From positions 1 through 57,408 of the forward strand of contig JAJYVD010000011.1 in the NCBI GenBank assembly GCA_021792185.1: a DNA stretch of 57,408 nt. The letters are read 5' to 3'. Positions within the stretch are counted from its first letter, which is position 1; the number at the start of each line of letters is the position of its first letter. Below are positions 4,748 to 47,550 of the stretch, piece by piece. The position numbers and the translations under genes were made by a program. Below the pieces are notes generated by a model. It saw nothing but the letters and a program-made list of their open reading frames with translations, had not been told where the DNA came from and did no database searches. The DNA is from Nitrospirota bacterium. GTDB taxonomy: Bacteria; Nitrospirota; Thermodesulfovibrionia; Thermodesulfovibrionales; Dissulfurispiraceae.

Positions 4748-5861
4748 CAGAAGGCTGATAAAAAACTTCGACTGGATAACGTTCCTGCTGATAACTACCC
4801 TTTCCCTTATCGGCATAATGACTATTTACAGCGCGACAAGGCCTCCTTTAGGAGTGGGCGAACATCCTGATTTTTATGCGAAACAAATATTGTGGTTTGT
4901 GATAAGCATGATAGCGCTTATTGTAGTCGCAACCGTCAACTATATATGGCTTTACAGACTATCTTATCCGCTCTATGCCCTCGGGCTGATTCTTTTGATT
5001 GTCGTGCTTTTCACAGGAAGGACGAGCATGGGGGCCCAGAGGTGGCTGAGCATTGGACTCGTCTCGTTTCAGCCCTCCGAATTTTTCAGGATTTTCTTTA
5101 TAGCAGGTTTTTCCGCATATCTTACCAATATCGGCACACGTTTCACCGAAAAGATTCCCATTAAAAGCATATTGATATTCGCGATATTCCCACTCGTTTT
5201 ATTAATCAAGCAGCCAGATCTCGGAACAGCCATACTTCTGATGTCGTTGTTCGTCATACTCTCCGTTTCAAAAGGGATCAGCAGGAAGATCACAACGCTC
5301 ATAATCATTATAGGACTTATTTCCATCCCCTTCTTAGGCAACATCCTATGGGAAGGGCTTAAAGAATACCAGAAAAACCGCCTGATAGCCTTTATCGATC
5401 CCGATATAGATCCGGCAGGCATAGGTTATCACATCACGCAGTCGAAGATATCGGTAGGCTCCGGCGGCTTTTTCGGAAAGGGCTATTTGAAAGGCACGCA
5501 GGGGCCGCTCAGGTTTTTGCCTGAAAAACATACCGATTTCATATTTTCGGTATTCGCCGAGGAGTGGGGTTTTATCGGAAGCGCTCTGCTTTTAGGAATA
5601 TATTTGCTGCTCTTTTTAAGGGGGCTGGATACCGCAATGAAGGCTAAAGACGAATTCGGGAGATTAGCTGCAACAGGGATAACCGCTATGTTCTTCATAT
5701 ACTTCTGTGTCAATATAGGCATGACCCTCGGGATAATGCCGGTAGTGGGGGTTCCCCTGCCCTTTGTGAGCTACGGCGGCACCGCGCTCCTGAGCAATTT
5801 CATAGCTGCTGGCATATTGATAAACATCAGAACAAGAAGGTTTGAATTGTTTTATCCGTAA
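4734..5861 (+). CDS. rodA: rod shape-determining peptidoglycan glycosyltransferase RodA
   Basis: A 375-residue SEDS-family polytopic protein. It polymerises lipid II and works with PBP2. Recognisable SEDS blocks include [19 protein letters not shown], the C-terminal [10 protein letters not shown] and [17 protein letters not shown]. The start overlaps the end of mrdA by 14 bases, showing tight coupling. It is the last gene of the shape operon; ribH begins 40 bases later with its own strong ribosome-binding site. Confidence 0.96.
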
Positions 5862-5901: not shown

Positions 5902-6363
5902 ATGAAAATCATAGAAGGAGAACTTCAGGCAAAGGGAATTAAATTCGGCATTATCGTGAGCAGGTTCAACGACTTCATAACATCGCGTCTCCTTGACGGC
6001 GCGGTTGATGCGTTGATAAGACACGGCGCGAAAGAAGACGATATAGAAGTGGTGAAGGTTCCCGGCTCATTCGAGATACCTCTTGCCGCAAAAAAGATGG
6101 CATCAAAAGGTTCATACGGCGCGGTCATATGCCTCGGCACGGTTATACGGGGAGCAACTCCTCATTTCGACTATGTAGCGTCCGAGGTCTCGAAAGGCAT
6201 AGCTGCGGCATCCCTTGAAACAGGAGTCCCCATAGCCTTCGGCGTGATAACCTCCGATACGATCGAACAGGCAGTCGAAAGGGCAGGCACAAAGGCGGGC
6301 AATAAGGGATGGGACGCAGCCATTACAGCGATAGAAATGGCGCAAGTTCTAAAGAAATTATAA
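5902..6363 (+). CDS. ribH: 6,7-dimethyl-8-ribityllumazine synthase
   Basis: Makes the riboflavin precursor 6,7-dimethyl-8-ribityllumazine from the ribitylaminouracil intermediate and dihydroxybutanone phosphate. The 153-residue protein has VSRFNDFIT (substrate loop), [27 protein letters not shown] with the catalytic His, and [12 protein letters not shown] place the start at the ATG at 5902, behind GGAGGAAAG, rather than at an ATG 60 bases upstream that would add residues not seen in the family. The other rib genes are not in the window; neighbouring nusB is a common partner of ribH. Confidence 0.96.
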
Positions 6364-8806: not shown

Positions 8807-8933
8807 ACATAAAATCAGACAATTACAATACAAAAAATCTCCGTTAATCGTCAAGTTTAACCTCGCAATAAAGGCAATGTATTAGCCTGAAGCGGCTTTA
8901 GCCTATATTATTCATAAATCACGAAAGCCAAAT

Positions 8934-9095
8934 CGGAAGGCAAAGTATTGGAGCGACTTCGGCAGCCCAAGCGTAACGCAGGTTAAGGTTGAGGTTAAGG
9001 TTAAGAAAGAAAAACTCAGCCTCAACCTTAGCCTTAACCTGTCGTTGAAAGGCGGGATGCCTTTCGAGAATGAAGCGGAAATGCTTTGTCTTCCG
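8934..9095 (+). repeat. dispersed structured repeat, copy A (variant core)
   Basis: Copy A of the family described at 34084. The ends pair: CGGAAGGCAAAG at 8934-8945 with CTTTGTCTTCCG at 9084-9095 (12 positions, one G-T). The conserved hairpin GAAAGGC-GGGAT-GCCTTTC lies at 9047-9065. Unlike the other copies, the central CAGCCC/GGGCTG hairpin is broken: after CAGCCCAAGCGTAACGCA the sequence switches to an unrelated GGTTAAGG-rich inverted repeat (8981-9040). It fills most of the 373-base gap between tRNA-Lys and apgM, which otherwise shows no gene. Confidence 0.85.
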
Positions 9096-9179
9096 GTATA
9101 ACAAAGTTTAGATAGTGCAGTTGCTAAAAGCCGCATTCTTGCATTATCATTTTTACATCCTACGCTTAAGGAGACTGCG

Positions 9180-13452: not shown

Positions 13453-13763
13453 ATCAAAGCCCCTCCTTTCATTTTATAGCCTATTTCTATCAATGACCCT
13501 ATCAGGAATTTCTGAACAAATATGATAGCAAGAATGACTATCAAAGGAGAAATGTCGATGGGGCCGAGCCTGTGCCCTATAAGCCTTCTTATGGGTCTTA
13601 AAACCGGATCTGTGACAGCATGAAGAAACCTTACGATTGGATTGTAAGGGTCGGGGTTGACCCAGCTTATCAGAGCGGCGATTATTACGACCCATTTGTA
13701 AATATCCAGCAGTATGTCGAGGATGTTCGCTGCCGCCAGCACCAGATTTGCAAAAATAAACAT
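13449..13763 (-). CDS. YggT family membrane protein
   Basis: A 104-residue protein with two or three membrane helices. The signatures are LISWVNPDPYNPIVRFLHAVTDP followed by the repeat-like PVLRPIRRLIG, then a hydrophobic DISPLIVILAIIFVQ helix. YggT is implicated in osmotic or membrane homeostasis and is often beside proC and yggS. It overlaps proC by one base and divIVA by four. Confidence 0.93.
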   Translation of the reverse strand: MFIFANLVLAAANILDILLDIYKWVVIIAALISWVNPDPYNPIVRFLHAVTDPVLRPIRRLIGHRLGPIDISPLIVILAIIFVQKFLIGSLIEIGYKMKGGALI

Positions 13764-14551
13764 TACTCCCTCCTTCCGAGCTCTTCAGCGCGCCTGACAG
13801 CAGCGTGAAGCGCGTCGATTACTATATCTTCAATATTTTTTTCCTCAAAGACTTTCAGCCCCGCCGCTGTAGTCCCTCCCGGAGATGTTACCATCTCCCT
13901 GAGCTTTTCCGGTGACATGCCTGTATCGAGCAGCTTCGCAGTTCCCAATAATGTTTGAACGGCAAGTTCAACGGCATGACTTCTGTTAATCCCCATTTTT
14001 ACGCCCCCTTCTATCATTGCCTCTACAAACAATGCGATAAAAGCAGGGCCGCTGCCGGACAAAGCGGTAACCGCGTTCATGTACTTTTCGGGCATGGTTA
14101 GCACTTTGCCCACGGACATGAATATCTCTCTCACCATTGCGATATCCTTATCCGAGAAACATTCGCATAATGACATAACGGACATGCCCTCCTGAACAAT
14201 CGCAGGGGTATTGGGCATTACCCGTATAAGCTTTTTAGTATTCAGCTTTGATTGTAAGTATGAAAGCGTTATTCCTGCGGCGATCGACACGACCGTCTTA
14301 TCATCCGTAACACCGTCTTTTATCTCATCGAGGGCAGAGGCCATGTTCTGCGGCTTAACGGCGAGAATGATTATGCTGCAAGAAGATGCGATTTCTTTAT
14401 TGTCGGCCGTTGTCTTTACCCCGTATGTCTGCTCCACATATTTCCTTCTATCTTCCCTCGGCTCAGAGACGATAATATCCTTCATCCCCTGAGAGGTCAT
14501 GCCTTTTATCAATGCCTCAGCCATGTTCCCGCCGCCAATGAAACCGATCAT
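13763..14551 (-). CDS. proC: pyrroline-5-carboxylate reductase
   Basis: Catalyses the last step of proline synthesis with NAD(P)H. The 262-residue protein opens with the Rossmann motif MIGFIGGGNMAEALIKG and carries AVKPQNM, RVMPNTPAIVQEGMS and the catalytic-domain block ALSGSGPAFIALFVEAM. The ATG at 14551 follows AAGGAGT. The first 12 codons and the ribosome-binding site (14515-14564) are repeated at 15705-15754, beyond the DUF1016 gene, so this 5' end appears to have been rebuilt by an insertion. Confidence 0.96.
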   Translation of the reverse strand: MIGFIGGGNMAEALIKGMTSQGMKDIIVSEPREDRRKYVEQTYGVKTTADNKEIASSCSIIILAVKPQNMASALDEIKDGVTDDKTVVSIAAGITLSYLQSKLNTKKLIRVMPNTPAIVQEGMSVMSLCECFSDKDIAMVREIFMSVGKVLTMPEKYMNAVTALSGSGPAFIALFVEAMIEGGVKMGINRSHAVELAVQTLLGTAKLLDTGMSPEKLREMVTSPGGTTAAGLKVFEEKNIEDIVIDALHAAVRRAEELGRRE

Positions 14552-14564
14552 CTATTTACTCCTT
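14515..14564. repeat. direct repeat of proC 5' end, proximal copy
   Basis: This 50-bp segment (first 12 codons plus ribosome-binding site of proC) matches 15705-15754 at 44 of 50 positions, including 22 consecutive identical bases (14515-14536 and 15705-15726). The three differences inside codons are all silent; three more lie between the ribosome-binding site and the ATG. The two copies flank the DUF1016 gene in direct orientation, as expected for an insertion that restored the interrupted gene. Confidence 0.9.
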
Positions 14565-15681
14565 TCCTCTCCTCAACTATTCTCATCTCCACAAATCTCT
14601 GCCTTTCATGCTCTATTTCCCGCTTGAGCATTTGGGGGTCAGGTAATTTTAACTTATATTTCGAAGCAAATACCTTATTATTCATACCGCCGAGGGCATA
14701 CTCTACAACCGTATTCTTTTTGTCTGAACAAAGAATAATACCTATAGGATCATTTTCATCAGAAAGTTTCCCTTTGTCTTTGAGATAATTCACATAAAGA
14801 TTCATTTGTCCTGCATCAGCATGGGTAAACTCACCAATTTTCAGGTCTATGGCAACAAGACATCTTAGGACTCTATGATAAAGAAGGAGGTCAAGGCGAT
14901 AATGGCGTCCTTCAAGGGTTATCCGCTTTTGCCGCGCAACAAATGTAAAGCCGTTTCCAAGTTCGAGAAGGAAATGCTCCATGTGCCTTATCAAGGCTTC
15001 TTCCAATTGTGACTCTGAATACTCCTCTTTTAAACCAAGAAATTCGAGGATATAAGGGTCTTTTATTTCATCTTCAGGCTTAAGGGTAATTGGTTTCTCA
15101 TGGGCTTTGGCAATAACTGCCGTCTTGCGTCTGGACAGAGCGGTTCTTTCATAGAGCATGGATTGAATCTGCCTATCCAGTTGCCTTACTGACCAGTTTC
15201 CACGGACACACTCCGATTCATAGAATTCGCGCTTAAAAAGCTCATCAAGACGAAGTAATAAACGGTAATGTGACCAAGATAAGATGAATCTTTCAGTGAG
15301 TGGATGAATTGCCAAGGTTATTTCAGAATTCCGAGACAGTGTTGCGGATTTCTGCCCTTCTAATTTCCGAGACATTGTCTCGGAAATTGTAATTGGATAG
15401 CATAAGTAAAAACTTCTCATTGCTTCAAGATTGTCGGGAGAAAAACCACGCCCGAATTTCTTGTTCAAGTCTCGTGACAATTTTGAAATTAATTCTTCCC
15501 CATACTCCGCGCGCCTTTTCCCTTTCTGTTCGTATTTCACAATTCTTCTGCCGATGAGCCAATAAGTTGCCACAAGAGCGGTATTTACATATCGAACTGC
15601 GGTCTTCCGCCCCTGCTCAATAAGGGATGCAAGGTCGGTGATGAGGGTTGAATATGTATGCTTTTTAGTGGGTTGTTTCAT
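14548..15681 (-). CDS. DUF1016 / YhcG-type PD-(D/E)XK nuclease domain protein
   Basis: A 377-residue protein with two parts typical of the YhcG (DUF1016) family: an N-terminal helical domain (GRKTAVRYVNTALVATYWLIGRRI, GEELISKLSRDL, GRGFSPDNLEAMRSFY) and a C-terminal nuclease-like domain with RHYRLDLLLYHRVLRCLVAIDLK, whose D and D-x-K residues fit a PD-(D/E)XK site. Members are widespread accessory genes with roles suggested in DNA repair, defence or mobile elements. It overlaps proC by 4 bases and is preceded by a 15-codon proC remnant; it has no clear ribosome-binding site of its own. It interrupts an otherwise conserved yggS-proC run, indicating acquisition. Confidence 0.9.
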   Translation of the reverse strand: MKQPTKKHTYSTLITDLASLIEQGRKTAVRYVNTALVATYWLIGRRIVKYEQKGKRRAEYGEELISKLSRDLNKKFGRGFSPDNLEAMRSFYLCYPITISETMSRKLEGQKSATLSRNSEITLAIHPLTERFILSWSHYRLLLRLDELFKREFYESECVRGNWSVRQLDRQIQSMLYERTALSRRKTAVIAKAHEKPITLKPEDEIKDPYILEFLGLKEEYSESQLEEALIRHMEHFLLELGNGFTFVARQKRITLEGRHYRLDLLLYHRVLRCLVAIDLKIGEFTHADAGQMNLYVNYLKDKGKLSDENDPIGIILCSDKKNTVVEYALGGMNNKVFASKYKLKLPDPQMLKREIEHERQRFVEMRIVEERKGVNR

Positions 15682-15693
15682 GCAGTAATATGT

Positions 15694-15741
15694 TCAATTA
15701 TGTACCTCAGCCATGTTCCCGCCGCCTATAAAACCTATCAT
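15694..15741 (-). pseudogene. duplicated 5' fragment of proC
   Basis: A 15-codon frame on the minus strand reading MIGFIGGGNMAE and then VHN-stop. The first 12 residues are identical to the start of ProC, and a good AAGGAG site precedes it (around 15749-15754). It is the stump of the ancestral proC start left beside yggS when the DUF1016 gene arrived. It still looks translatable, and its stop lies 12 bases before the DUF1016 ATG, so it could feed ribosomes to that gene by reinitiation (inference). Confidence 0.85.
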
Positions 15742-15805
15742 CCGCTTACTCCTTGCATTAAAAATAAACGCCTTTTCTTAATCCTCTATAATACACCAAA
15801 TCAAC

Positions 15806-16495
15806 CTATTTTCTTTCCCCGAATATTGCAGTTCCTATCCTCACCATCGTCGCTCCTTCTTCAATCGCAACCTCAAAATCGCCGGACATGCCCATCGATA
15901 ATTCAGGAAGGCTGTATCCTTCTCTCCCCGCTTCATCCCTGATTTCTCTCAGCCGCTTAAAATACGGCCTCGCTTTTTCCGCGTCTTCGAAATACGGAGG
16001 CATTGTCATAAGCCCTTCGAGTTTTAAATTGTGAAGCCCTTTTATTTCTTCGAGTAACGACATCAGTTCTTTTTCCGAAACCCCGTGCTTTGCTTCCTCC
16101 TCCGACAGCTTTACCTGAATTAGAATTCTTTGAATTTTTCCCGCCTTTTCAGCCTGCCTGTTGAGTTCCTCCGCGAGCGCCGCAGAATCTACGGTCTGAA
16201 TTACGTCAAACAACTGCACAGCGTATTTAGCTTTGTTTTTCTGAAGATGCCCGATAAGGTGCCACTCAATCCTTGAATTTGAAATTTCTGATATCAGATC
16301 TGAAATTTTTTTCTGCGCCTCCTGAACCCGGTTCTCTCCGAAACACCGCAGCCCTGCGTCAACAGCCTTTTTAACGGCCTCCGCGCCTACAGTTTTTGTT
16401 ACCGCAACAAGTTTTACCTCGCTCGGGCATCTTCCGGCACGCATTGCAGCATGGCTCATCTTTTTCAGTATTAAAGATGCATTTTCTATCGGCAT
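15806..16495 (-). CDS. YggS/PROSC family PLP homeostasis protein
   Basis: A 229-residue PLP-binding, fold-type III barrel protein without known enzymatic activity that buffers pyridoxal phosphate. Visible blocks: VKLVAVTKTVGAEAVKKA with the PLP lysine, CFGENRVQEAQKK, WHLIGHLQKNKAKYAV, LEGLMTMPPYF and LSMGMSGDFEVAIEEGATMVRIGTAIFG. It is normally adjacent to proC; here 124 bases, the proC stump and the DUF1016 gene lie in between. Confidence 0.95.
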   Translation of the reverse strand: MPIENASLILKKMSHAAMRAGRCPSEVKLVAVTKTVGAEAVKKAVDAGLRCFGENRVQEAQKKISDLISEISNSRIEWHLIGHLQKNKAKYAVQLFDVIQTVDSAALAEELNRQAEKAGKIQRILIQVKLSEEEAKHGVSEKELMSLLEEIKGLHNLKLEGLMTMPPYFEDAEKARPYFKRLREIRDEAGREGYSLPELSMGMSGDFEVAIEEGATMVRIGTAIFGERK

Positions 16496-44271: not shown

Positions 44272-44300
44272 GTTGGTCTGAATTATTAAATGTTGTTATA

Positions 44301-44426
44301 GGCAGGACATAGCATTTCCGCTTCATTCTCGAATGGCATCCTGCCATTCTCCGAAGCTGCGCCAGCCCGCTTAAACATCCGTGTTACGCTTGGGCTGCCG
44401 AAGTCGCTCCAATACCATGCCCTGCC
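44301..44426 (-). repeat. dispersed structured repeat, copy C
   Basis: Inverted relative to A and B. Ends GGCAGG-A-CAT (44301-44310) and ATG-C-CCTGCC (44417-44426) pair at 9 of 10 positions. The second hairpin is GAATGGC-ATCCT-GCCATTC (44331-44349), where an A-T pair of the other copies is replaced by T-A. The central arms are CAGCCC and GGGCTG. It lies between comF and purA; at 44435-44454 another fragment (TTGCGGAAATACCTTGTCTC) repeats the family end in the opposite sense. Confidence 0.87.
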
Positions 44427-47412: not shown

Positions 47413-47550
47413 ATAGGAGGTAGTAAAGAGCATTTCCGCTTCATTCTCGGAAGGCATCCGGCCTTCCTCCGAAGCTACGCCAGCCCGCTTAAACATCCAT
47501 GTTACGCTTGGGCTGGCGAAGTCGCTCCAATACCCTTTACTACCTCCTAT
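47413..47550 (-). repeat. dispersed structured repeat, copy D
   Basis: The best paired copy: ATAGGAGGTAGTAAAG (47413-47428) is perfectly complementary to CTTTACTACCTCCTAT (47535-47550), a 16-bp outer stem unlike that of any other copy. The second hairpin is GGAAGGC-ATCCG-GCCTTCC (47449-47467), with a G-C pair where others have A-T. The central arms CCAGCCC/GGGCTGG are intact. It lies between serA and the aminotransferase gene. Confidence 0.9.

Follow-up and report, generated by a model that had tools for sequence, protein, structure and literature searches.

A DUF1016/YhcG gene between two diverged copies of the proC start in a Nitrospirota genome, and a candidate recombination route for its insertion

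The 57,408-nucleotide stretch of Nitrospirota DNA analyzed here (the window) contains a putative nuclease gene of the DUF1016/YhcG family that was inserted at the start of the pyrroline-5-carboxylate reductase gene proC and is bracketed by two diverged copies of that start, one of them a stump and the other serving the intact gene. From this repeat, an empty site in a relative, the foreign character of the inserted gene, and the recurrence of the layout with a lack of specificity for cargo or target, we infer both a recombination route and a donor: it seems to us probable, though by no means assured, that host recombination joined a fragment from another lineage to the resident gene, using homology at one end and an illegitimate joint at the other, yielding a product of the kind termed long target duplication with the nuclease gene as cargo.

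The DUF1016 insertion at proC

On the minus strand, the order of features in the window genome (G000) is yggS, a native gap, a proC stump, a 23-nt filler, the DUF1016/YhcG gene and proC. The native left neighbor yggS (15806-16495; PLP homeostasis protein, Pfam Ala_racemase_N) is followed by the native yggS-proC intergenic sequence (15755-15805) and the left copy of the repeat (15705-15754), which comprises the native proC ribosome-binding site and codons 1-12 and is now the stump. The left-junction filler (15682-15704) separates this stump from the start of the inserted gene for a putative PD-(D/E)XK nuclease (14548-15681), and the right, functional copy of the ribosome-binding site and codons 1-12 (14515-14564) provides the start of the intact proC (13763-14551; Pfam P5CR_dimer and F420_oxidored). 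A sequence-only reading of this DNA had proposed that the proC start occurs twice, and our repeat search bore this out to the nucleotide, returning a 50-nt direct repeat with 88% identity (44/50), a spacing of 1190 and a score of 35 (the maximum across 500 Markov resamples of the region being 14.5). That reading had also called the three coding differences silent, which they are (codon 2 ATC/ATA, codon 4 TTC/TTT, and codon 5 ATT/ATA; probability ~0.01 under random change); the other three differences fall in the interval from Shine-Dalgarno to ATG. All six lie within the first 28 nt, and there are none in the remaining 22 nt (codons 6-12; chance 0.024), which suggests, from just six differing sites, a switch between native and foreign sequence inside the repeat. 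A comparison with relatives offered too few sites to tell the native copy from the foreign one: the stump agrees with the genus at codons 4 and 5 and the restored copy at codon 2; the right copy is probably the arm that arrived with the insert. At the other end of the insert the DUF1016 TGA (14548-14550) overlaps the proC ATG (14549-14551), and the proC ribosome-binding region supplies the last codons of DUF1016 (a tail of about KGVNR); DUF1016 homologs elsewhere (in G005, G063, and G041) stop short of this proC-derived tail. DUF1016 is the sole gene between the repeat copies, and in agreement with the earlier reading we found no tyrosine or serine recombinase and no transposase in the insert. 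There is one proC in the genome, so the stump does not come from a second proC gene, a source that the earlier reading had itself raised.

The proposed insertion into a native proC site was supported by the genus sister G002, in which DUF1016 is missing and proC directly follows yggS (the two genes also adjoin in G007). The left flank in the window follows this empty site from the intergenic sequence into the stump, so that the left copy occupies the place of the native start. The earlier reading had suggested looking for DUF1016 genes at the same place in relatives, and they are there: in G013, from another genus, a restriction-modification operon is followed by a proC stump (a 28-codon frame), DUF1016 and proC, with repeat copies that are 95% identical, and in G027, also from another genus, a proC stump (MIGFIGSGNMAEA...) precedes a broken DUF1016 and proC. 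On the G001 contig, which lacks yggS, a methylase gene is followed by DUF1016 and proC with no stump, and in G030 the DUF1016 tail alone remains ahead of proC. The right junction, where the end of DUF1016 runs into the proC ribosome-binding site, is common to G000, G001, G013, G027, and G030; the left junctions are all different (G000, G001, G013, and G027 compared), and since the filler sequence differs in every relative we take it to be an illegitimate joint. In addition, a type ISP restriction gene sits at yggS-proC in G019 and PADLOC candidates are present there in G013 and G027; this interval is an accretion site for defense-type genes. In G005 and G063, close relatives of the DUF1016 gene occupy a different site, kdsD-kdsC.

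The inserted gene, which is single copy in the window genome, matches PF17761 (E=3e-43) and PF06250 (E=1e-59), with both the DUF1016_N and YhcG_C domains above their curated Pfam cut-offs. Residues D264 and K281 are invariant in 13 diverse DUF1016 members, and D279 of the (D/E)xK motif is present. The YhcG/DUF1016 family is COG4804 (PMC1189080), and the window gene is like the family in its domain content, catalytic residues and scattered, accessory distribution; a likeness of YhcG to Holliday-junction resolvases was predicted earlier. The gene also matches PADLOC PDC-S02, a single-gene defense candidate (E=2.5e-142), and we regard it as a candidate phage-defense nuclease. The earlier reading held that the segment was foreign and brought its own proC start, and composition and divergence agree with this: GC is 41% in DUF1016 vs 48% in proC, and between G000 and its congener G001 nucleotide identity is 75.9% for DUF1016 vs 85–90% for proC, yggT, and hisS. 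Given its AT-richness, and a divergence between the congeners that exceeds that of its neighbors, we consider the gene foreign, and the congeners probably do not share it through ancestral inheritance. A foreign tract extending into proC was rejected, there being none at the 5' end, where the G000 proC tracks its genus. In mid proC (alignment columns 400-480) the genus sisters match at 59-60/80 positions and other genera at up to 65/80, possibly a small recombination tract.

The stump consists of the ribosome-binding site and 15 codons (MIGFIGGGNMAEVHN and a stop; 15694-15741, minus strand). Its stop lies 12 nt ahead of the ATG of DUF1016, a start that lacks its own Shine-Dalgarno sequence, and the corresponding distance is 1 nt in G013 and 14 nt in G027. 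The suggestion that the stump feeds translation of the nuclease gene is in keeping with this spacing, but the frame controls were similarly close; as a general rule for stump and cargo we rejected translational coupling, other frames often being equally close, and for the stump and DUF1016 in the window it is plausible from the arrangement of the two frames. Elsewhere in the window, a 117-bp intergenic direct repeat (90%; 44300-44416 and 47418-47534), which resembles the peptide read at 8919-9136, is a dispersed intergenic repeat of the G000 genome.

Repeat-bracketed genes at other loci

DUF1016 is carried by 69 of the 230 genomes of the class Thermodesulfovibrionia that we searched. Direct repeats were sought in 450-nt flanks on both sides of each gene, in genomes that are mostly metagenome assemblies and in which contig ends cut some flanks. 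In this class repeats bracketed 19/80 DUF1016 genes vs 5/307 control ORFs of similar size from the same loci (p=3e-10, relatedness ignored), and in other phyla 6/65 vs 4/181 (p=0.02, relatedness among genes ignored). The earlier reading had suggested a search for other DUF1016 genes flanked by duplicated 5' ends of their neighbors. About half of the DUF1016 positives are clear duplications of a neighbor's start or end, the others being intergenic, short or decayed. Duplicated starts belong to proC, to type III methylase genes (L162, L146, and L152) and to a Bro-N/DinD-like gene (L078), and duplicated gene ends to HsdM and Eco57I-type genes (L115 and L137); overall the targets include proC, dtd, ubiE, ychF, mod, hsdM, and other restriction-modification genes.

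The family control sets were small (22–28 genes each). Among them, AAA_14 ATPase genes were bracketed in 8/23 cases, or 7/22 minus one duplicate (p=1e-6, relatedness ignored), and HsdS genes in 0/25; with slightly looser edge limits AlbA_2 genes gave 3/22 and Fic genes 1/26. At L210, for instance, an AAA_14 gene is bracketed by a duplicated ubiE start (139 bp, 95%). Duplicated starts or ends of neighbors bracket the AAA_14 genes at L210, L227, L221, and L226, and the AAA_14 set includes a duplicated P-loop/zeta-toxin-like start (98 bp, 92%). The bracketed Fic gene (L346) lies between two copies of the end of ychF, a core gene (46 bp; 1039-1084 and 2143-2188).

At several loci (L078 5300-14100, L146 1500-4500, and, on the minus strand, L152 and L137) we observed arrays of successive cargo genes, e.g., DUF1016, Bro-N/DinD-like and PIN-like genes among others, each with a further copy of the start or end of a restriction-modification gene; from their layout they look as if stacked through repeated insertion. 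Two DUF1016 loci (L079 on G098:C9 and L178 on G218:C27) have identical coordinates and repeats in genomes of different families, either a recent transfer or a binning error. In Necropsobacter (L323) two identical 22-bp sequences (4903-4924 and 6033-6054) lie on either side of the DUF1016 gene; they contain AAAGTGCGGT, which we take to resemble the Pasteurellaceae DNA uptake signal.

Routes to the duplicated start

A larger insert in dtd of G072, consisting of an hsdM piece, DUF1016 and hsdS, is bracketed by 373 duplicated bp (93%). All 23 differences between the two copies fall in the first ~200 bp, and the copies agree throughout the last ~177 bp, up to the junction (chance 2.5e-7). Upstream the left copy matches the empty site of G160, and upstream of the right copy is HsdS, as in G158. 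Such a mosaic is expected from one homologous crossover in dtd and one illegitimate joint deeper inside it, and the divergence of the window repeat shares this polarity. Elsewhere the polarity was mixed or reversed, and a single polarity for all loci was rejected; the mixed and reversed patterns would fit the same route with the homologous arm on the opposite side, and some loci may have formed otherwise. At L266/L076 (1299-2663) we also observed a chimeric ORF, an in-frame fusion of a dtd start (124 codons) with part of an N6-methylase; DUF1016, hsdS and an intact dtd lie downstream of it.

In the account that we prefer for proC, the incoming fragment would have come from another lineage in which DUF1016 already ran straight into a proC start. 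Its proC end would have undergone homologous recombination with the resident proC start, and its other end would have been joined illegitimately a few codons into that gene, so that the resident start would be left as a stump and the incoming start would restore proC. The segment between crossover and joint would be duplicated exactly, the remainder being foreign in one copy and native in the other, and the nuclease gene would be cargo that gains a host promoter and not a mobility machine of its own. The recurrence of the layout with other genes and targets points to ordinary one-sided recombination and not to a dedicated jumping enzyme; counting against this account, the stump-less DUF1016-proC form that would serve as donor was found in G001 only. 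Cargo placed just behind a start would be transcribed and translated from host signals, and the imported start would preserve the function of the host gene; this may be why such insertions survive selection. Single accessory or defense genes could enter core genes by this route with no transposase and with the core gene still working; its traces, lone genes set between diverged copies of the start or end of a gene, can be counted (about a quarter of DUF1016 genes in one class), and it would explain the gathering of such genes at core-gene starts such as that at yggS-proC and next to restriction-modification genes.

Insertion with long target duplication has been reported for all types of restriction-modification systems (Nobusato 2000; Furuta 2010; as relayed in PMC3031569 and PMC1643837). 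As described in those relayed accounts, it likewise places a gene within a gene between long direct target repeats of variable length, with no transposase and a link to defense or restriction-modification, and the window has an empty allele (G002), a long direct repeat, and neither transposase nor recombinase. It differs from what is described there in that its insert is a lone DUF1016, its repeat is 12% diverged and in part identical, its duplicate exactly restores the ribosome-binding site and start, and AAA_14 genes behave alike. A homologous anchor combined with an illegitimate joint is known from transformable bacteria and from E. coli conjugation and was proposed for the type VI immunity-gene stacks of Vibrio cholerae (PMC5361080 and PMC3240628); in the laboratory this homology-facilitated illegitimate recombination is reportedly rare, and it was described as displacing sequence, not duplicating it. 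By our account the window would likewise combine one homologous anchor with one illegitimate joint: the foreign-to-native switch expected of an anchor is clear at dtd in G072 and suggested in the window by its six informative sites, and the joint on the other side is non-homologous and variable. Successive additions in the Vibrio arrays stack and leave remnants of older genes, as here. However, in the window a core-gene 5' end would serve as the anchor and is restored, whereas in Vibrio it lies upstream of the effector and the old effector is displaced. With DUF1016 as its only gene, the insert has no recombinase of the type expected for an integrase-type genomic island that restores its target.

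DUF1016 might instead be a homing-like selfish nuclease that cuts the empty start, with repair copying in the nuclease gene together with a recoded, cut-resistant start, and to this its intact nuclease residues, the foreign gene portion with silent-only differences, the recurrence at proC in three genera and the close relatives at kdsD-kdsC would all be suited. The mobile ORFs in atp6 of Allomyces and Glomus mitochondria (PMC3630166) have the same layout, a nuclease gene beside a foreign target part that replaces the native one, with mainly synonymous differences and an endonuclease biochemically shown to drive mobility; as these are the closest look-alike with an active nuclease, we keep a homing-like nuclease as a reading, though a quite unlikely one. 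Those ORFs carry a C-terminus and encode LAGLIDADG or GIY-YIG enzymes of reported activity, whereas the window has a 5' end, a putative PD-(D/E)XK nuclease and non-nuclease genes that are found in the same setting. A foreign target part does restore the gene in the window, but we did not find the constant ends, single target or dependence on a nuclease that homing would bring: the left ends vary, many unrelated genes serve as targets, the duplicated piece is in some cases the end of a gene and not its start, and AAA_14 ATPase genes are bracketed by repeats at a rate no lower than that of DUF1016, as are some AlbA_2 and Fic genes. Given non-nuclease cargo, variable left ends, unrelated targets and the duplication of both starts and ends, no role of the nuclease in insertion is needed. 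The sequence-only comparison with a specific, target-restoring mobile element, if driven by the nuclease, fared poorly on these same grounds; the case for DUF1016 as the specific driver loses weight once the AAA_14, AlbA_2, and Fic genes are considered, and a self-mobilizing, target-restoring nuclease is less likely than our preferred account.

It is also unlikely, in our judgment, that insertion duplicated the 50-bp target exactly, through a staggered break or replicative joining, and that later mutation or gene conversion diverged the copies. This was the original reading of long target duplication for restriction-modification genes, at least as those accounts are relayed, and the identical halves at dtd do require a real duplication of part of the target; yet a dead stump should gain non-silent changes, when the window has silent ones only (chance ~0.01), and the diverged dtd half abuts foreign HsdS sequence, which an imported arm fits better. 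A circle bearing a proC start and DUF1016, integrated through a single Campbell-type crossover, would produce diverged repeats in one step and account for the restored gene and the absence of a recombinase, and excision between the repeats would presumably regenerate it. However, it predicts a left copy that passes from native to foreign, a right copy that passes from foreign to native, and differences throughout, when one dtd half is fully identical; no circle was seen, and we hold this origin to be distinctly improbable. Although the assembly is fragmented (89 contigs), we give virtually no credence to an assembly or binning artifact, as the recurrence of the structure in the independent assemblies of G013 and G027 refutes it, and both the left flank and proC agree with the genus.

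A palindrome within the DUF1016 coding sequence

In the window DUF1016 gene, the coding linker that joins the N-terminal domain to the C-terminal one contains a perfect odd palindrome, TTCCGAGACA-T-TGTCTCGGAA (i.e., TTCCGAGACATTGTCTCGGAA; 15365-15385), and an imperfect second copy with three mismatches (15329-15349); apart from this partner, no match with three or fewer mismatches was found elsewhere in the genome. At least 9/10 complementary positions around one center were present in 96/162 DUF1016 genes from many phyla vs 20/810 synonymous-codon shuffles (p about 1e-67, relatedness among genes ignored). The geometry was odd in 95 genes and even in 3, as compared with 2 genes for a control region of the same genes. 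There were 70 different 9-nt arms among 95 genes, and 19 genes had two to four palindromes with different arms; as the arms vary yet stay complementary, selection acts on the symmetry and not on one sequence.

An RNA hairpin was rejected as the cause, as G-U pairs showed no excess over A-C mismatches (small numbers), so we favor a DNA-level symmetry. Because YhcG was predicted to be like Holliday-junction resolvases, our guess is that the DUF1016 protein might recognize a cruciform or hairpin formed by these sequences. Going further, DUF1016 could be a self-mobilizing, target-restoring, structure-specific nuclease of the Holliday-junction-resolvase kind that cuts cruciforms formed by the palindromes of its own gene, these being under selection throughout the family, yielding broken ends that move the gene with a recoded piece of the target, a combination that we rate as highly improbable. 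In the literature that we searched we found no description of either the insertion pattern or the coding palindrome of DUF1016; the palindrome is a first lead on what DUF1016 recognizes, and may be more novel than the insertion. In their typical form (L063–L344) the palindromes have arms of about 13 nt with AATT outer ends and a core that is often CAGACA-S-TGTCTG, and are perfect or near-perfect.
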